From a virus, in IMG/VR virus record IMGVR_UViG_3300010368_000155, positions 1 to 20,740 of that record: DNA of 20,740 nt; one strand, written 5' to 3'. The position numbers were made by a program, and so were the translations under genes. Below, in pieces: positions 1,375 through 20,442 of the stretch (its first letter is position 1; the number at the start of each line of letters is the position of its first letter). The notes under the pieces are model-generated. The model saw nothing but the letters and a program-made list of their open reading frames with translations. It searched no databases and was not told the DNA's origin.

Positions 1375-4300
1375 TTAAGGTGTATTATTACTTCTATTTG
1401 TTTCATTTTTGCTATAACCCTGTGGTTCTGCGTTTGGTGGTGATTTTAAGTCTCCTGCATCAGCATTTTGTGGAGAGCCATGATTTGAGTTCCCAGACCT
1501 ATCATATATGGTACTTATTGAATCAGATAATCCTGTTGAGGCATCTAAGGCACTCATTGCCCAATTACCAACTAAATTATCTGAGTAGCTATCTAAAAGA
1601 TTGCCATGCCTACCAAGATTGTAGATTGCACTTACTTCTGTTGCTGAAAGTGCTTTACTCCAAAATGCTACTAATGAAATTTGACCATTAAAAGCACCAC
1701 CATTCCATTCTTCAAATCTGCCAATTTCCAAATTTGCATTTGCGTATGTTGAATTATTTGAAGTTGTAGAAGATATAGTATTAGTGTATGTTGCTGTTTG
1801 AACATCGCCATTTAAATATATTTTAATCCTATCATTATTTGATGATTGAGTTCCATCATAAACTACTGTAACGAAAACCCAAGTACCTGTACTAAAAGAA
1901 TGTGTTGCAGTTGCCCTACCTCTTGTTGAACTATCACTACCATTGTAAACACCTGCTACAACAGTAGTGCTTCCTATATATAAAAATGTATTATGGTCAT
2001 CACTTCCTTTTTTACCAAAAATGCCATGTAATGTAGTATCATCAAATTTTATCCAAGAAGAATGAGTAAATGCTGATTTATTTCTTAATGTGTCATTAAA
2101 AGTATTTGATAATATATACTCATCAACCCCATCCAAGTCTATAAAGTTATACGCAGAGTTTACTCCTGTGAGAAAGGATTGGTCTGGCAGAACTGAGGAA
2201 TAGACTAAATCACTTGAGTCTTGATTTGTCATTGTGCCGACATTGCCTTGTACTTCTTTGGTTGAAAGATTTAAAATATATATTTCTTGTGAGCCATTTA
2301 CAGAATCAAAAAATAAAGATGCTGTACTTCCTGTAGCCACATAATAAATAATATGTTCAGTCTCTGTTGTATTTAATGCTTGTATTCCTGCAGTTTCTGA
2401 ACCTGTCCATATTTTTACATTAGGTGCAGTACCACCAAAATAATAAGCATTAAATTTTACTTTATATATTTTACCAGAAGTCGTAGTTGCATTTAATAAC
2501 TTTGCATCTGTGAAATCACCCTGTGCCCCACCTGCATTATCAACATGAGTAATTTTTACACCATTAGTTACATTAGCAACTGTATTACTACCATAAGCTG
2601 ACCATCCAGAAGATGTGTTAGCATCAACTAACTCTGCTCCAAGAACAGGCTCATTTACATCTATGATGGCAGGGTAAGTGTCTGATACTTCTGATTGTAG
2701 GACTTCTTTGACTGAGACATTATCTATAACAACATTTAAGCCTGTATAACTTCCTGTGGTTTGAAACCAAAGATATCCATTTTGTGTCATTGTAAAATAA
2801 GTTGTAAATGTATTATCTACTAATTTAGATGAAGTAATATAAGTAACTGCTCCACCACTTACCCTATATGCAAAAGCAGTTTTAGATAAAGTAGTAACAT
2901 CTAATTGTAGTTTATAAGTTTTGCCAGAGTATAAAAAATTAGAACCATAAGCAGTTAATTGACTATATTGACTTGCATTTGTAATAGATGCTACACCATT
3001 ACTTATAGTAAAATCTCCTACTGCTGTCCAATCTGTACTGTCATCAAAAGTGCTATTACTAATTAACTCACCACTCAACTCTTCTGAACTACTCTCAAAT
3101 GCCCCCATGTCATAACCTGCAACCATTTGCTGTACTATGTCATCTGATGCACCATTTGTGATTGTACCATCGTTTGAGTTAGAACTTGAATCTGCTATGG
3201 TAGGATATGCCTTACTTGTGTCATCGCCCATTCTCCAATAACCAACAAGTCCACTAAGTGAAGATTCATCATAAGTAATTCCTTGCTGATAGATAGCGTA
3301 AATTTCTTCTGCTGATTTGGCTGTGGAGTAAACTGCTACGGATGACATTGAACCATCAAAATGAAAAGCATTATTTCCTTTTCTACCAATTTCAAGAGAA
3401 ACATCATCATTATCTATAGAACCAGATGCTGATAAGGTATCTTTTAAATCTCCATCAACATATATTTTTAAAGAAGAGCCATCAAAAGTAGCTACTACAT
3501 GATACCAAACATTAGAACTATAAGAGCCACCATCAACTGTCTTACCAACCCCACTTATTCTTATTTGTGCATATATCTTACCATCACTCCATCCATATAA
3601 TATATAATTACTGTTAGTATTATCATCTCTTGCTAAGATAACATTAGTTCCTGTAGAATTAAAATTAACCCAAGACGATAAAGTAAGTTGGGATGTGGTA
3701 TCAAGTGAAGTACCATCACCACAATCTATATAATCATCACTACCATCAAAATCCACTACAGAAAAGCGATTGTCTCTCATGGGGGTGAATCTGCTCTTTG
3801 CCATCTGTGAAATGGTTTGAGCATCGAGGACTGTTTGGTAAATACCTACATTAGACATTTTACCTTCGTAATGCGTTGTAGAACCACCCTCATATTGACC
3901 TATCCATAATTTTTCTGCTCCAGACGCTCCCCACTTACCTGTAACATTAATTATTTCAACCCCATTTCTATATCCATAGACTTTTGTACCATCTGTCATC
4001 ATTACATAATGTTGCCATTCTCCAATACTTACAGGAATTTGAGTATCAGATGCAGTTCCTGTTGGATGATAGCTTCCTGCATCATTATCGTCATTAATAA
4101 AATTAATATGCCCATCTTGATACCCAATAATTACTGACCTGCAAAGACCTGCATTTTGGTCAAATAAATACTTATCACCTGTTACATTATCTGGATTAAT
4201 CCAGAAACTTATAGCAAAATTATCTGTAGTAAATGTTTGTTCCACTATTACTGAATCATTCGTACCATCAAAATCAGTATAGAAGTCACTTCTGGCGATT

Positions 4301-13947: not shown

Positions 13948-14001
13948 GTGGATTTGAATTTAAATATAAGTCATACATAAACAAAAGACAAATAATATTT
14001 T

Positions 14002-15594
14002 TTATGCCCTAGATCCAGTCATCCAGTTATACGCTTTTTTCTTCATACGTCTTACTGGACTAGATTCTTCATTTAGTAATGATTCTCGTTTTGTTCTTGT
14101 ACTCTTAGGAGCTTTGGCAAAGTAGTCTGCATAGTATAACGCATCCATCACATCGTCATTTCTAGGTTTTGGGTGCTCAAAGAACTCATCTACCAATTCT
14201 GTCATTTCCCTTCTTATGTATAATTTCTTAGAATTGACAATAACACCTAAGCTTGTTTCAAGCCTATCTTGCTTTTTAATCCTAGCGGGTGGCTTAACAC
14301 CCTTAAAGATTCCGGGCATTAGTCTTTTTTCAGTAGCAGACATTCTTGTTACCATATCTCTAACCATTTCCTGTGCCGCTACTGTTTCTATCGTTACTCT
14401 CCTTACTGGAGTATATTTATTTGCTAACCTTATAATTTCTTTTGGAACATCAAAGGTAGGTATTCTTTCTCTAAAGTACTCTAGGACATATCTATTTTTA
14501 TTGGAATCAATCGCCATTACAAGTATAACTTGAAAGTCAGATGTTTCCGATGCTGTTGCTGCTAAATCTACCCCCAAGTAAATGTTTACTGGTATAGCAT
14601 CTTCACCGTCTATGAGGTAATTGAATTTGTTTCTACATTCTACCTTACCGCTGAAATATTGTATTCGATCTATTTTAAACGCTGCATTAGAAACATCTCT
14701 CGCATCATTCATGTATTCCTGTGCAAACTTATTAACAAGACCAGCTTCAATAAACTCTCTTTTCTTTGCTGCTAGTTTTTTAAGAGAGAATTGCTCTTTC
14801 CAAATAGACTTACCATCTTCTATTGCTCGCTTAAATGTCACCGCCCAAGGATATTCTCTACCTTCGTCTTGAGCTTTTTTGTTTCCATCTACTACTGCTT
14901 GCAAAAAGCTATCAAAATGAACTATCGTTCCCGCTAACCATATCCAACCTTCTCTTCCCGGAGTTTCCTCCAGTGCAGGATATACTGTTGATACGATCCA
15001 TTTCTTAATATCTGCTCTACGCTCTGGTGTTTTGGTATTTAGTTCTGATTCAAAGTCATCTAAGATGATACCAGTATAACGAACATCTACTTCTGCTCTA
15101 CCTCTAAGTCTCTGTGAAGTACCTTTTGCAATTAATCTGTCCCCTTTAGGTGTAACAATATCTTTTTCTGTCCAACGCTTTCCCGCTGCACCTCCATCTA
15201 AATTACCGAAGTAGTAACGAAGACGCTTATTCATTTCAAAATGATTGCGTAAATACTTTAAGTGGTCAATAGACTGGCTTTGCTCTTCGGATACCCATGC
15301 AATGAAGTGTTGCTCATCATCCTGAGCAAACACAAGCTTATGCATAATGGCTGCTTTCGATAAGATTGATTTACCAAAACCTCTAGGCATAATGATACAG
15401 CTACGACTACCGGGTTTAGAGGATATTAGTTTATCTGCTACATCAAAGTGAAATGCTGGTGATGCAGACTTTTTAAGAAAGTCATTTGGTAGAAAAGCTC
15501 TTCCAAAGTAAATAAGACTTTTATAGGACTTGGCTAATACTTCATCCCTGTCTTTCATTTCAGATGGAGATGGATTAATATTAAAATTATCCAT
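14002..15594 (-). CDS. terL: Terminase large subunit (ATPase and nuclease)
   Basis: The 530-residue protein powers DNA packaging at the portal and cuts concatemers. The Walker A motif is MPRGFGKS (69-76), Walker B with catalytic acid is IILDDFE (about 176-182), and a coupling motif is near WLAGTIVHFDS (219-229). The RNase H-like nuclease follows: Asp343 in GVDLA, Glu403 in TIETV and Asp480/481 in RNDDVMDALYYAD. The motif order and size are normal, so the enzyme should be active. A 54-base gap separates it from the endolysin gene, and 8 bases separate it from the hidden gene upstream. The window does not show whether packaging is headful or cohesive-end. Confidence 0.95.
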   Translation of the reverse strand: MDNFNINPSPSEMKDRDEVLAKSYKSLIYFGRAFLPNDFLKKSASPAFHFDVADKLISSKPGSRSCIIMPRGFGKSILSKAAIMHKLVFAQDDEQHFIAWVSEEQSQSIDHLKYLRNHFEMNKRLRYYFGNLDGGAAGKRWTEKDIVTPKGDRLIAKGTSQRLRGRAEVDVRYTGIILDDFESELNTKTPERRADIKKWIVSTVYPALEETPGREGWIWLAGTIVHFDSFLQAVVDGNKKAQDEGREYPWAVTFKRAIEDGKSIWKEQFSLKKLAAKKREFIEAGLVNKFAQEYMNDARDVSNAAFKIDRIQYFSGKVECRNKFNYLIDGEDAIPVNIYLGVDLAATASETSDFQVILVMAIDSNKNRYVLEYFRERIPTFDVPKEIIRLANKYTPVRRVTIETVAAQEMVRDMVTRMSATEKRLMPGIFKGVKPPARIKKQDRLETSLGVIVNSKKLYIRREMTELVDEFFEHPKPRNDDVMDALYYADYFAKAPKSTRTKRESLLNEESSPVRRMKKKAYNWMTGSRA

Positions 15595-16711: not shown

Positions 16712-16825
16712 TGTTATCTCTCTATCCATATTTAAATTTAATAAAAACTTGACAAACTGCAACTATATATAATAATATTATCTATCCCCCCTTTATTTAG
16801 TCCGTTGGATTTATAGTAGTACTAT

Positions 16826-16947
16826 AGTATATATAGTATATAGTATATATAGTATATAGTATCTGTTATATATATATTATATATAATATATATTATATAT
16901 ATATAGTATATAGTATATATAGTATATAGTAAGTAGTATATATAGTA
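16826..16947. repeat. TA-rich array: 16-base direct repeat and palindrome
   Basis: The unit AGTATATATAGTATAT occurs at 16826-16841, 16842-16857 and 16912-16927, plus partial copies at 16905-16911 and 16935-16947. A long TA palindrome (about 16867-16904) lies at the centre. A 15-base near-copy recurs at 17259-17273 within promoter P1, and an 18-base identity (TAAGTAGTATATATAGTA) links 16930-16947 with 17254-17271. This could be an easily melted origin element, a tandem of -10-like sites or a binding array. It is not CRISPR: there are no spacers of equal length. Confidence 0.75.
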
Positions 16948-17152
16948 CCCGCTTTTTTTTATGTAGTACCCGCCCCGCAATAGATCCTAGATAACACCAT
17001 AGTAAACTTCAGAAAATTTTAAAAAAAATATTTTAGTATGTGTCTTTCTCTTTTATTACTAGGGGCTACCCCCCTTAACCATTTTGAGATTAGGTTTCTT
17101 GGGTTGAAAAAAACAAAACTAATAATGTATAGCTAAAGCTATCCATATTCAT

Positions 17153-17189: not shown

Positions 17190-17237
17190 TTCAGGTTCGT
17201 AGCATGCAAAATTAATTTAAATTATTTTAAAATAAAT

Positions 17238-17264
17238 GGAACTTTTTAGGAACTAAGTAGTATA
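17238..17264 (+). promoter_or_regulatory. Promoter P1, GGAACT-N16-GTATA family
   Basis: GGAACT (17238-17243) and GTATA (17260-17264) are separated by 16 bases. The same spacing occurs at three other rightward sites. It lies upstream of the TTG-start gene and the DUF932 gene. GGAACT resembles the -35 of ECF-type sigma factors, with GTATA as -10; the recognising polymerase is unknown. Confidence 0.6.
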
Positions 17265-17331
17265 TATAGTATAAGTTTTTTTGACAATTTGATAGTGCCT
17301 TGAGTAGCAGAGAAAACAGGGGCATTAATTT

Positions 17332-17379
17332 ATGGACATGGTGTCCAACCTAATTAAAAAACAAGGAGGTTGTTTTTGA
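17332..17379 (+). CDS. Possible 15-residue leader peptide
   Basis: ATG 17332 opens MDMVSNLIKKQGGCF, and its TGA (17377-17379) overlaps the TTG start of the next gene (TTGA). A GGACA-TGG-TGTCC inverted repeat (17334-17346) covers its first codons. AGGGG lies 9 bases upstream. Such a coupled leader could control the TTG gene, but a chance short frame cannot be excluded. Confidence 0.3.
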   Translation: MDMVSNLIKKQGGCF

Positions 17380-17579
17380 AAGATAAACGTAAAGTTAATC
17401 TTGATGAAGCTACTTTATTTGGTAGTCGTGACAATTTAGATGAAGCATTTAAATATGCTCAATCTATTTTAGAACGTGAATCAAAAGATAGTGCAATTTA
17501 TTTTGCTACTTCTCTTATGGTTATATGGAACACTTTGGCAACAAAGTACGACATCTACGAAAAAAAAGTAGCTGAATAA
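17376..17579 (+). CDS. 67-residue hypothetical protein, TTG start
   Basis: No ATG starts this frame. A strong AGGAGG ribosome binding site (17364-17369) is 6 bases from TTG 17376, so I chose that over TTG 17370, which touches the site. The product opens LKDKRKVNLDEATLFGSRDN and holds LDEAFKYAQSILERESKDSA and YFATSLMVIWNTLATKYDIY. It looks helical and soluble, with a mildly hydrophobic middle. A G4/C4 stem-loop follows at 17592-17621. It is the first gene behind promoter P1. No family is recognised. Confidence 0.7.
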   Translation: MKDKRKVNLDEATLFGSRDNLDEAFKYAQSILERESKDSAIYFATSLMVIWNTLATKYDIYEKKVAE

Positions 17580-17591
17580 GATTCTGAGTTT

Positions 17592-17621
17592 GGGGCTAGA
17601 CTTGGAAACAGAACTAGCCCC
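17592..17621 (+). terminator. GGGGCTAG/CTAGCCCC stem-loop, attenuator or weak terminator
   Basis: An 8-bp GC-rich stem (17592-17599 with 17614-17621) and 14-base loop is followed by ACTTTTAAAAAC. The T-tract is short, so termination may be partial, letting some transcription reach the DUF932 gene that begins 36 bases later. Confidence 0.5.
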
Positions 17622-17657
17622 ACTTTTAAAAACACCTTATAATTCAAGGACAATATA

Positions 17658-18584
17658 ATGAATAACGTAATAGATAATATAGTACCTAACTTAAATGATG
17701 TTACAGATCTAATAATAGCTGATAGTTCTAAGACAATAGAACAACCTGTTATTAATAACTTAGGTGGTAAGCTAGACCCTTTTGTGGAAATACATAAGCA
17801 ACCTACGTTCTTACCTAGCGGTAAACAATCAGGTGCTTTTGCTGTAACATTAGGCGAGTCTGAAAAAGAGGTAGGTATTGTAAAAGAAAATTACTTACTT
17901 GTTGAAAACAAACAGATTTCTGAAATAGGACAAAATATAATGTCTGACTCAGGAATCGATTTCCAACCTGATAAGGTATTCTTTAATGGTAAGCAATTTA
18001 GAGAAATCTATGTAGCTAAAGATGCTGGGCTAGAAGTTCAAGTTCCTAAAGTTGGTGATTTACTTGGGTTAGTATTTGAAATACAAAACAGTTACGACTC
18101 TAGTATTAAGGCTGGTGTCAATGTTTACTTTCAAAGGCTAGTATGTGAAAATGGTATGTTATCTAAGGCTTTTGGTTTTGGACACACGTTTTGGCATACA
18201 ATGAACAATGTCAATTGGGACAATGAGATTTCAAGAGCAACGCAAGTTCTCAGAAATCAATCAGGTGGTAGACTTCGTTCATTTGCTGAAGCATGTGGTA
18301 AATTACAGAAACCGATAGAAACACAGGATATTGCTAACATTAGAGAAAATTATATTAGCAAACTACCTACCCAGCAATTTGGACAAATGTATGATAAATA
18401 CTTAGCTGATAAAGACTATTCAGCTTGGGGTTTATTAAATGCTGGAACGAATGTCTTATGGCATGCTGACAAGCTAACAACAGCTAACTTTAATAATAAC
18501 AGTTTAGTTGTTGATGGATTACTAGATTATGGTAAGGTTCTAACACCTGAGACTAGTGACCCTAATCAAATTAGCTTCGCCTAA
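17658..18584 (+). CDS. DUF932 (phage/plasmid-like) protein
   Basis: The 308-residue protein matches DUF932, also called the TIGR03299 phage/plasmid-related family. Landmarks include GKQFREIYVAKDAGLEVQVP, then a LVFEIQNSYDSSIKAGVNVY and FQRLVCENGMLSKAFGFGHT core (about 137-177). The N- and C-terminal halves are less conserved (LADKDYSAWGLLNAGTNVLW near the end). Length is within the normal range. The role is unproven; the family occurs on phages, plasmids and conjugative elements and is often placed with replication or early genes. AAGGA lies 7 bases before ATG 17658. It probably shares promoter P1 with the TTG gene, and a stem-loop follows at 18608. Confidence 0.88.
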   Translation: MNNVIDNIVPNLNDVTDLIIADSSKTIEQPVINNLGGKLDPFVEIHKQPTFLPSGKQSGAFAVTLGESEKEVGIVKENYLLVENKQISEIGQNIMSDSGIDFQPDKVFFNGKQFREIYVAKDAGLEVQVPKVGDLLGLVFEIQNSYDSSIKAGVNVYFQRLVCENGMLSKAFGFGHTFWHTMNNVNWDNEISRATQVLRNQSGGRLRSFAEACGKLQKPIETQDIANIRENYISKLPTQQFGQMYDKYLADKDYSAWGLLNAGTNVLWHADKLTTANFNNNSLVVDGLLDYGKVLTPETSDPNQISFA

Positions 18585-18607
18585 AAACTAGGACACCACA
18601 ACACCTC

Positions 18608-18630
18608 GGGGCAAGTGTATAAACTGCCCC
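18608..18630 (+). terminator. GGGGCA/TGCCCC stem-loop after DUF932 gene
   Basis: A 6-bp stem (18608-18613 with 18625-18630) with an 11-base loop follows the DUF932 stop by 23 bases. It is followed by ACTTACAC, not a T-run, so it is at best a weak or factor-dependent terminator, or a stabiliser of the upstream mRNA's 3' end. Confidence 0.45.
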
Positions 18631-18666
18631 ACTTACACAAATTAATCATATTACAGAATTTTATCA

Positions 18667-18675
18667 GATTACAGA
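18667..18675 (+). repeat. GATTACAGA element
   Basis: This is one of a family of GATTACA(C/G)A elements limited to this arm. It is directly followed by AAGGAG and the 18-codon frame at 18690. A related copy (ATTACAGAA) sits at 18650-18658 and another (GATTACACAA) at 18759-18768. Confidence 0.5.
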
Positions 18676-18689
18676 AAGGAGATCTCTTT

Positions 18690-18746
18690 ATGAATTTTTT
18701 TTTATTTTTTATATATATATTATATTATGTGCACGCACGTAGGTAG
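18690..18746 (+). CDS. Possible 18-residue hydrophobic peptide
   Basis: ATG 18690 is 8 bases after a strong AAGGAG and opens MNFFLFFIYILYYVHARR before a TAG. The hydrophobic run with a basic end would be a small membrane peptide or leader. The AT-rich sequence (poly-T, TA tract) can produce such frames by chance, so confidence is low; the ribosome binding site is its main support. Confidence 0.3.
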   Translation: MNFFLFFIYILYYVHARR

Positions 18747-18766
18747 GTGCTTCGCTCAGATTACAC

Positions 18767-18793
18767 AACGTCGCAATTATGCACGTTCGCAGA
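18767..18793. repeat. AACGTCGCA and ACGTTCGCA motif pair
   Basis: AACGTCGCA (18767-18775) and ACGTTCGCAGATT (18783-18795) echo the pair at 17153-17189. The AACGT and ACGTT halves form a dyad 11 bases apart. Recurrence in both non-coding blocks, and nowhere noted in coding DNA, suggests a shared binding protein. Confidence 0.45.
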
Positions 18794-19013
18794 TTATTTA
18801 TTTATATATATGCACGCACGCACGCACATAGTCTGTAATAGTATCGCATTTGTACAATATCGTATGAATTAGAGAGTTTTAGACGTGTTTAGTTATGCAT
18901 TATATACTACGTGTCTCCATACATTTATATAATATTTAAATATTGTACACCTTAGAAATACACCCTTTGCAACAAACCCCCCAATATATATTAAATATTT
19001 TTTAATGTTTTTT

Positions 19014-19040
19014 GGAACTTTCTTAATACTTATTAGTATA
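19014..19040 (+). promoter_or_regulatory. Promoter P2, GGAACT-N16-GTATA family
   Basis: GGAACT (19014-19019) and GTATA (19036-19040) have the same 16-base spacing as P1. The -10 lies 33 bases before ATG 19074, leaving room for the AAGGAG ribosome binding site at 19061-19066. Confidence 0.65.
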
Positions 19041-19073
19041 GTATATATAACAAAAAACAAAAGGAGTTTTAAT

Positions 19074-19295
19074 ATGTCTTTAAAAGAAAAATATATCGGT
19101 GAGTATGAATGTAGTTTTGGAGAAGAAGCAATTTTTACAATAATTAAAAAGGGTACAGAATTACTCGCAGGTGGTGTAACAAATGCGGGTTTCTATGAAG
19201 AATATAATTGGGAGTTCGACAACGATTTTACACTAGATGAAAATTTAAATGACTTTGTAGAATATATAAATGAATCAGAAATGAGATTAATTTAA
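19074..19295 (+). CDS. 73-residue acidic hypothetical protein
   Basis: A longer frame begins at 19005, but ATG 19074 is preceded by AAAGGAG with 7-base spacing, and the P2 promoter lies inside the longer version, so the short start is correct. The product opens MSLKEKYIGEYECSFGEEAI and has TIIKKGTELLAGGVTNAGFY, then an acidic NWEFDNDFTLDENLNDFVEY end. It is a small strand-rich protein with net negative charge. No family is recognised. Small acidic phage early proteins can act as nucleic-acid mimics or inhibitors of host proteins; that is speculative here. Confidence 0.7.
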   Translation: MSLKEKYIGEYECSFGEEAIFTIIKKGTELLAGGVTNAGFYEEYNWEFDNDFTLDENLNDFVEYINESEMRLI

Positions 19296-19302
19296 TTAAA
19301 AT

Positions 19303-19329
19303 GGAACTTTATTTAATTAAGATAGTATA
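19303..19329 (+). promoter_or_regulatory. Promoter P3, GGAACT-N16-GTATA family
   Basis: GGAACT (19303-19308) and GTATA (19325-19329) have the same spacing as P1 and P2. The -10 ends 26 bases before ATG 19356, with AGGGAG as ribosome binding site in between. Confidence 0.65.
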
Positions 19330-19355
19330 TAAGATATAACAGGGAGAAAAAAACA

Positions 19356-19688
19356 ATGGATGGAATAAATAAAATAAAAATAGAGTCGGGCTTTGGAACT
19401 GATAGAAAGGTAGTGAAGGCACGTTGCTGGAATGGTGTTGGATTATCTACATGGAAAGAAATGGAAGTCGGACAATTAGAGGATGAATATAAGAATATAG
19501 TTAGTATTGGAAGAGTAGCAAAAAAAGACTTTTCCGATCATAAAACAGAGGCTAGTTTATTTTTTAAACTTGAAGATATACCCGCACTGATTGCAACATT
19601 AACAAAAGTTGCAGAGGATTCACAAAAGCGAGAGTTTAAAAACCAAGTAAATTGGAACTTAACAGAAACAAATAAATTCAACAAATAA
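19356..19688 (+). CDS. 110-residue hypothetical early protein
   Basis: The protein opens MDGINKIKIESGFGTDRKVV, then KARCWNGVGLSTWKEMEVGQ and a strand-rich middle, and ends with ASLFFKLEDIPALIATLTKV followed by a charged helix. FFKLEDIPALI..L is a strand-plus-helix end that recalls small nucleic-acid-binding proteins of the PC4/YdbC type, but the match is too weak to name. Promoter P3 is directly upstream. The gene after it starts 15 bases on without its own P-type promoter. Confidence 0.7.
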   Translation: MDGINKIKIESGFGTDRKVVKARCWNGVGLSTWKEMEVGQLEDEYKNIVSIGRVAKKDFSDHKTEASLFFKLEDIPALIATLTKVAEDSQKREFKNQVNWNLTETNKFNK

Positions 19689-19692
19689 AGGA

Positions 19693-19701
19693 GATTACAC
19701 A
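19693..19701 (+). repeat. GATTACACA element before a start codon
   Basis: The element follows AAGGA and ends 2 bases before ATG 19704, at a gene lacking its own GGAACT promoter. It may be part of a translation or regulatory signal. Confidence 0.5.
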
Positions 19702-19703
19702 AT

Positions 19704-19898
19704 ATGCGAACATTTGACAAATACAAACAGAATCTAAGAGCAACAGACAACCACGTATATAGTTATGAAACGAAGGTAGCAGAGATTGACCACGAAACTA
19801 GAACAATTAAGCCTCTTGGGTGGTGGTCTATGACAAGTTCAAAACATATAAATTACGTAGGTTCTGAATACGGATACGAAGTACAGAAAGTAAAGTAA
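19704..19898 (+). CDS. 64-residue hypothetical protein with SSKHINYVG motif
   Basis: The product opens MRTFDKYKQNLRATDNHVYS and continues with YETKVAEIDHETRTIKPLGW, then WSMTSSKHINYVGSEYGYEV. The T-S-S-K-H-I-N-Y-V motif is one I associate with very small phage proteins of unknown function whose strands end in a short helix. An AGGAG-plus-GATTACA start region precedes it. It is probably co-transcribed from P3 with the 110-residue gene. Confidence 0.7.
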   Translation: MRTFDKYKQNLRATDNHVYSYETKVAEIDHETRTIKPLGWWSMTSSKHINYVGSEYGYEVQKVK

Positions 19899-19915
19899 TT
19901 ACACAATATATAAAG

Positions 19916-19926
19916 GATTACAGAAT
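19916..19926 (+). repeat. GATTACAGAAT element, second copy nearby
   Basis: The element lies 8 bases before ATG 19935, just after AAAG. A related ATTACACAAT is at 19898-19907, so two copies are packed into the 36-base gap between genes. Confidence 0.5.
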
Positions 19927-19934
19927 AAATAGAT

Positions 19935-20135
19935 ATGTCAGAAATTAAATACAAGCACATAAAACTAAAGATATCACACAAAGTCTTTAGAGATGTACAA
20001 AACTCATTAATTACACGAGCGATGGCAGATAATACAAACGGAATTACTGACCAAATACTAATTAAAATAATTAAGTATATATCAGATAAAGAAAAAGAAG
20101 TGCAAATAGAATACAAGAAAGAAAGAGAAAAATAA
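19935..20135 (+). CDS. 66-residue basic hypothetical protein
   Basis: The protein opens MSEIKYKHIKLKISHKVFRD and has RAMADNTNGITDQILIKIIK, then a long charged tail with KEKEVQIEYKKEREK. It is helical and strongly basic, consistent with DNA or RNA contact or a helical partner. No known family is recognised. It starts behind the paired GATTACA elements and has no GGAACT promoter of its own. Confidence 0.65.
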   Translation: MSEIKYKHIKLKISHKVFRDVQNSLITRAMADNTNGITDQILIKIIKYISDKEKEVQIEYKKEREK

Positions 20136-20147
20136 ATAAAATAATAC

Positions 20148-20174
20148 GGAACTATTTTTAAATAGAGGCGTATA
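20148..20174 (+). promoter_or_regulatory. Promoter P4, GGAACT-N16-GTATA family
   Basis: GGAACT (20148-20153) and GTATA (20170-20174) keep the 16-base spacing. The -10 ends 25 bases before ATG 20200, with AAAGGA between. The spacer differs in sequence from P1-P3, so the conserved parts stand out. Confidence 0.65.
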
Positions 20175-20199: not shown

Positions 20200-20442
20200 A
20201 TGACAAATAAACAATTTAATAAAGCAGTAAAAGGAATTACAATCCCTATAGTAAAAAATTTAAAAGGTGGGGAAATGTTACAACATAATGACGATTATTA
20301 TTTATATAGTTATGAGTTAGATGAAGACCACGAAGAAGGCGAGAGTTACGTAACATTAAGAGAAGTTGCAAACGATGAAGAAATTGCAGTATTATGTTTG
20401 AATCTGAAAGAAACACAAATAATATACCAAATGTTAATTTAA
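20200..20442 (+). CDS. 80-residue acidic hypothetical protein
   Basis: The protein opens MTNKQFNKAVKGITIPIVKN and holds GGEMLQHNDDYYLYSYELDE, then an acidic DEDHEEGES and a C-terminal strand-helix with IAVLCLNLKETQIIYQMLI. It is strongly acidic in the middle. Promoter P4 is directly upstream. Size and charge are typical of early phage proteins that bind host factors, but no partner can be named. Confidence 0.7.
   Translation: MTNKQFNKAVKGITIPIVKNLKGGEMLQHNDDYYLYSYELDEDHEEGESYVTLREVANDEEIAVLCLNLKETQIIYQMLI

Follow-up and report, generated by a model that had tools for sequence, protein, structure and literature searches.

Results

Four spaced elements in the early arm of a marine phage fragment

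The window analysed here (positions 1 to 20,740 of IMG/VR record IMGVR_UViG_3300010368_000155) is a 20.7-kb genome fragment from a marine, podovirus-like phage that is uncultured. Its minus-strand (late) arm carries the genes for terminase (phrog_38), portal (phrog_156), major head protein (phrog_1328) and an SU10-type adaptor, and its plus-strand (early) arm opens with a DUF932-like gene, followed by small genes. An initial annotation of the window had described, in the plus-strand arm, four copies of a putative promoter in which GGAACT is separated by exactly 16 bases from GTATA and which recalls promoters of extracytoplasmic function (ECF) σ factors. Exact pattern matching recovered all four copies at the coordinates given there, all on the plus strand; the minus strand of the window has none, in line with the initial annotation, which noticed none in the minus-strand late arm, and a reversed control pattern has zero matches in the window. 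The four matches compare with 0.02 expected (s.d. 0.14), and none of 100 dinucleotide shuffles contained four. The elements and the open reading frames (ORFs) that follow them, with scores from a position weight matrix (PWM) where available, are:

17226–17237, plus strand: A/T-rich tract resembling an upstream promoter (UP) element, abutting copy 1 on its upstream side (from a logo over 95 unique sites)
17238–17264, plus strand: putative ECF-type promoter, copy 1, before a leader and the DUF932-like gene (exact match)
19014–19040, plus strand: putative ECF-type promoter, copy 2, with ATG 19074 33 bases on and AAAAGGAG between (exact match; PWM 19.1)
19074–19295, plus strand: small early ORF after copy 2, its putative driver (ORF list and sequence)
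19303–19329, plus strand: putative ECF-type promoter, copy 3, before ATG 19356 (exact match; PWM 29.8)
19356–19688, plus strand: small early ORF of 110 aa, function not assigned, after copy 3, its putative driver (ORF list)
20148–20174, plus strand: putative ECF-type promoter, copy 4, before ATG 20200 (exact match; PWM 27.5)
20200–20442, plus strand: small early ORF of 80 aa, function not assigned, after copy 4, its putative driver (ORF list)

The distances from the end of GTATA to the start codons at 19074, 19356 and 20200 are 33, 26 and 25 bases, with an AGGAG-like site between in each case, in agreement with the initial annotation. A listed ORF beginning at 19005 overlaps copy 2, and ATG 19074 lies in the same frame. 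The next likely start after copy 1 is about 105–111 bases away, and this copy therefore has a leader. A PWM trained on other contigs gave the four copies 19–30 bits and found no further independent site in the window. An equivalent of the tract at 17226–17237 also precedes copies 2–4 and most of the sites in relatives. Copy 1 has an equivalent at the same place in the close relatives L005, L006, L007 and L010, with one spacer base different, and copies 3 and 4 have near-identical counterparts in L006, at 4717 and 5754. The T noted as fixed two and four positions after GGAACT is present in all four copies; across the family this does not hold, T being found in only about 65–78% of sites.

The element family is conserved across the phage clade

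Because the motif was picked after the window sequence had been seen, the strong evidence is its replication in relatives. IMG/VR holds hundreds of contigs related to the window, with terminases 40–100% identical to its own, and we kept contigs found via the motif separate from those found via proteins to avoid circularity. GGAACT-N15-18-GTATA has 21 matches, versus 2 for the reversed control, in 11 contigs fetched by terminase or DUF932 similarity, and 20 versus 0 in 7 further contigs fetched by an early protein (41 versus 2 in all 18). G004 and G005, with zero matches, end short of the early-proximal segment. With 17 sites from other contigs as its training set, a matrix recovered 39 sites at 16 bits or more in held-out genomes, versus 0, 0, 1, 0 and 0 in five shuffles. 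When no condition was placed on the −10 part, six A/T bases followed by GGAACTT occurred 51 times, versus a mean of 2.4 (maximum 10) for permuted words, and 34 of these 51 occurrences have GTAYA exactly at +22/+23, versus 0.7%.

Relatives carry 1–11 copies each, clustered in the early arm and on the early strand, and the median distance to the following start codon, which has a ribosome-binding site, is 32 bases. Of 57 unique sites, 70% lie 20–50 bases ahead of an ORF with a Shine-Dalgarno (SD) sequence and ATG, versus 3% of random positions. Exact sites in each clade genome are all on the early strand; the exception is G026, where two sets diverge around position 14,000. Outside this phage clade the motif is almost absent, and inside it the motif persists in relatives with as little as 40% terminase identity. 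These results show that the four elements of the window belong to a promoter-like family that an uncultured clade of marine phages has conserved, and that the family sits before early-arm genes and is distinct from the TTGACA-type promoter of the same genomes (described below).

The copies could instead be a non-promoter repeat of the early arm, such as a protein-binding site or a packaging or recombination signal, that stands before genes by chance. Their dispersal ahead of small genes, and an inverted repeat across the −10 of the first copy in several relatives, would suit such a repeat; the fixed strand, the two-block spacing that is fixed with a one-base alternative, the constant distance to the SD sequence and start, and the UP-like tract argue against it, and we regard it as very improbable.

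The consensus resembles ECF σ promoters

The consensus of 126 unique cores is (UP-like A/T tract)-T-GGAACTTTT-N12/13-(C/A)GTATAA; in order, an A/T-rich tract (typically TAAAATAATT) is followed by T, GGAACTTTTT, a weak AA a few bases on and (C/A)GTATAA, and a conserved A (93%) lies 7 bases after GTATA. The spacing is short in 95 unique sites, one base longer in 30 and two bases longer in 1, the longer form being frequent at the first promoter, ahead of the DUF932 gene. In the logo of the 95 sites the UP-like tract has A in 80–85% at −9, −8 and −5 and T/A elsewhere. The base before the GT of the −10 element is C in 47% of sites with short spacing and 77% of those with long spacing, and most of the others have A. 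The GT itself is kept in all conditioned sites and in several imperfect −10 elements (CGTTTAA, GTTATA), and the final T of a σ70-type TATAAT is conserved in only 49% of the 95-site class; both features favour an ECF −10 over a σ70 −10.

ECF promoters have about 16 bases between their boxes, with one-base flexibility, and the element of the phage clade is like them in this, with about 16–17 bases. The −10 of E. coli RpoE promoters is TC-rich, and the clade has (C/A)GTATAA instead. The defining mark of an ECF promoter is AAC in the −35 and CGT in the −10 element, and the −35 of RpoE is GGAACTT (PMC8103513). Both are present here: AAC in GGAAC(T) with its A/T tract (the 51 versus 2.4 occurrences above) and CGT in the −10 element. 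The reference promoters of ECF (group 4) σ factors, E. coli RpoE and B. subtilis SigW (−35 ATTGAAACCTTT), are alike in this −35 AAC and −10 CGT, and the RpoE −35 is identical to that of the clade (PMC8103513). Unlike these reference promoters, the element sits at phage early genes. The pattern of a σ70 promoter, a TTGACA-like −35 with a TATAAT −10, is not what the family has: its −35 is GGAACT, and its −10 has a weakly conserved last T in the main class.

One could nevertheless read the sites as promoters of the primary host σ, with a TATAAT −10 after a conserved G, 17 bases from a weak −35, and with strength drawn from the UP-like tract. GTATAAT does include TATAAT, the gap from GGAACT to TATAAT is 17 bases and the upstream sequence is A/T-rich. 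The same genomes have a separate TTGACA promoter, however; in the main class only 49% of sites have the final T, GT rather than TATAAT survives in several imperfect sites, and GGAACT is strongly kept without drift toward TTGACA. On this evidence we consider a primary-σ origin quite unlikely. The four elements are best described as putative ECF-σ-type promoters, and the ECF-like promoter family suggested by the initial annotation is well supported at the sequence level: its position, strand, spacing and conservation, the ribosome-binding sites and the UP-like tract all agree with it.

Several structures accompany individual sites. In relatives, the first ECF-type promoter has an inverted repeat of 14–22 bases with 77–94% complementarity (L131:4075–4117, L179:8193–8248, L138:8871–8927, L147:9749–9811, L149:6080–6141, L182:124–163), which the window lacks; its promoter-side arm begins at the −10 CGTATA, giving an operator-like dyad. 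A leader of about 180–230 bases runs from the first promoter to the first early gene in L131 (about 3890–4110, minus strand) and at the equivalent places in G002, G013 and G016; it has strong predicted secondary structure (−31 to −54 kcal/mol) and no match in Rfam. At L008:11296–11322, a GGAACC site has its −35 within a hairpin (GGAAGTCGGGAA/TTCCCGACTTCC), possibly the terminator of the preceding gene fused to a promoter.

A second promoter class and the genome layout

The remaining features of the window that bear on the argument are:

14002–15594, minus strand: large subunit of terminase, which marks both the late arm and the phage family (phrog_38, E 4e-69; relatives found)
16749–16776, plus strand: separate σ70-like promoter, TTGACA with an A/T-rich −10, at the divergent junction
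17370–17579, plus strand: small ORF, 69 aa from its first TTG (no Pfam match)
17658–18584, plus strand: DUF932-like gene of 308 aa, the first of the large early-arm genes (homologue and weak PHROG matches)

The TTGACA is conserved in the junctions of relatives that were read, where the promoter points right; this indicates two promoter classes in the family. In most relatives read, A/T-rich repeats (AGTATATATAGTATATAGTA; window 16815–16950) lie between the divergent arms and adjoin the TTGACA promoter; they are a possible replication origin. At 16943–16973 the window has a pair of TAGTACCCGC boxes (GCGGGTACTA on the late strand), set 21 bases apart; most relatives keep the pair at about 19–21 bases, and it is a candidate regulator site of the late arm. 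In the ORF at 17370–17579, an in-frame TTG six bases further on is better placed relative to AAGGAGG. The DUF932 assignment comes from the G001 homologue, which matches PF06067 and is 52% identical to the window copy, and from the weak PHROG matches.

Exact end-to-end self-overlap of G003 and G013 gives genomes of about 42.7 and 42.9 kb (about 40–43 kb for the family); the early arms of these relatives encode a Cas4-like exonuclease, a RusA-like resolvase, an HNH endonuclease and a protein ending in -PF that resembles single-strand binding protein. No tRNA genes or Rfam families were found. The contig G009 (56,959 bases) carries two genes for the terminase large subunit, whose products are 80% and 31% identical to that of the window; it is a candidate chimaera or element insertion.

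Nucleotide comparison of the window with known phages gave no match, nor did tblastn of the portal, DUF932, exonuclease, 132-aa and 1332-aa proteins against isolates. The closest isolates, which come from various hosts, reach about 26% identity in terminase and 29% in capsid, and host inference from isolate matches was dropped on this account. No terminase relative occurs in 85,000 bacterial and archaeal genomes, so a host is not assignable via prophages. SD-like sites stand ahead of 47% of conserved genes, versus 8% background; the host therefore uses SD sequences, which speaks against a typical Bacteroidetes host.

Search for a phage-encoded σ factor, polymerase or activator

Neither the Sigma70_r2/r4 families (PF04542, PF08281; no match above cut-off) nor phrog_1740, the phage σ family of gp36 (positive control detected), were found in the clade genomes, and the large genomes of the clade that were read showed no DNA polymerase, RNA polymerase or σ factor. 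RNA polymerase had no match among the conserved large G001 proteins searched, a subset of the ORFs, and none when the 1332-aa late protein was compared with the PDB. MotA and AsiA homologues, looked for through Pfam and PHROG searches only, were not identified. The “phage-modified polymerase” of the initial annotation may or may not apply; no σ, RNA polymerase or known activator was found in the family genomes.

A phage-encoded specificity factor, the main rival to a host σ, would be either a highly divergent ECF-like σ, compare gp36 of phiEco32, or an activator that takes over recognition of the −35, compare MotA of T4; the TTGACA promoter would then fire first and the GGAACT promoters would be delayed-early or middle. 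Such a factor would account for a motif nearly confined to one phage clade and kept down to 40% terminase identity, and for a σ70-like promoter upstream of the GGAACT promoters; the phiEco32 gp36 promoters, tAATGTATA, also end in GTATA (PMC4331800), and the adaptor gene of the window matches the SU10 adaptor family. The five best phmmer matches of gp36 among the ORFs of the family are all one conserved 132-aa early protein (best E 0.0024, a weak match). This helical protein (DWDKITEGKIRHG...; L008:17474–17869) is found clade-wide next to the exonuclease, and its gene would fall past the end of the window fragment. A role as a hidden σ is not supported: profile comparison by hhalign gave a probability of 0.6%, and a low-confidence model (pLDDT 65) matches no σ fold. 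With no σ family found in the clade, and a reported phiEco32 consensus that has no comparable −35, we judge a phage-encoded factor somewhat unlikely.

G015 (101 kb; L143–L145, L150) and G033 (L178) are Bacteroidetes-type phage contigs, with genes that lack SD sequences, TAnnTTTGC elements and composite promoters of the form GAACTTTT-...-TAnnTTTGC-GTAYAAT. G015 has a σ factor of its own (290 aa, L150:979–1851); it was rejected as support, being an unrelated contig with a different composite promoter, and was left out of the statistics.

Discussion

As no σ was found in the phages, the simplest model is a host core enzyme with a host ECF σ, and as neither a σ nor a polymerase was seen among the conserved genes, the host RNA polymerase is the likely enzyme. 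We therefore think it probable, with some reservation, that host RNA polymerase, loaded with a host ECF σ, transcribes the early genes. The “alternative host polymerase” of the initial annotation fits best in this form, and its “early or middle” class is drawn from genome layout and gene order.

In the mechanism that we propose, the σ4 domain of the ECF σ would read GGAAC(TT) at −35 and the σ2 domain would melt the DNA at (C)GTATA in the −10 element, and the α-subunit C-terminal domain would contact the upstream A/T tract in the manner of a UP element; the predicted RNA start is close to the conserved A that lies 7 bases past GTATA. Less certainly, the σ would be the host's own envelope-stress-type ECF σ, acting on unmodified host core RNA polymerase. 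Many small early genes would be switched on at entry, each by its own promoter, and the envelope damage of infection might free the σ from its anti-σ. A doubtful extension is that this widespread ocean clade has its early genes driven by a host envelope-stress ECF σ which infection damage releases, and which so serves as an infection sensor.

The long motif has 16 exact matches in 257 Gb (85,000 bacterial and archaeal genomes). At least 6 of the 16 lie outside long ORFs and 23–87 bases ahead of genes with an SD sequence, most of which encode exported or membrane proteins, a placement that resembles envelope-stress ECF regulons and loosely supports the host-σ model. Several points weigh against that model. 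With these 16 matches, no bacterial group examined has a dense regulon of the motif that would point to a host, and one bacterial class (142 genomes) has 7 matches versus 1 for the control; rarity in bacteria, together with near-confinement to the phage clade, would also fit a phage-encoded factor. SAR11 has few σ factors, and a SAR11 host would make a host ECF σ unlikely. Pfam barely detects gp36, the ECF σ of phiEco32, itself (E 0.002), so a divergent phage σ could be missed.

Several phage systems are comparable in part. The middle promoters of T4 combine a MotA box with TATAAT, and resemble the clade promoters in placing a conserved box at a set distance upstream of a TATA-like −10; they differ in box sequence and spacing. 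The early promoter cassettes of T4-like phages (promoter early stem-loop) likewise serve many small early genes, each with its own promoter, but no consistent stem-loop is seen with the clade promoters. The phiEco32/7-11 phages also have a phage-wide set of ECF-like promoters, and tAATGTATA of phiEco32 ends in GTATA (PMC4331800). Their σ (gp36) is phage-encoded and serves middle and late genes, whereas the clade has no gp36 homologue that we found, has its promoters in the early arm and has a strong −35. In the literature covered by our search, we found no description of phage early promoters that are read by a host ECF σ.

In conclusion, on sequence evidence the promoter family is real, conserved and of ECF type in an uncultured marine phage clade. 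GGAACTTT-N13/14-CGTATAATA is usable as a DNA marker for the clade, as most viral contigs that have it carry the clade terminase or repeat the clade promoters. Our work points to a transcription strategy for a large clade of uncultured marine phages, hundreds of contigs to which no isolate is near enough to match. If the host-σ model is true, early genes would be tied to a host stress σ, and the outcome of infection would depend on the state of the host envelope; the −10 and −35 of the promoter would then predict which host σ, and hence which host, to seek.

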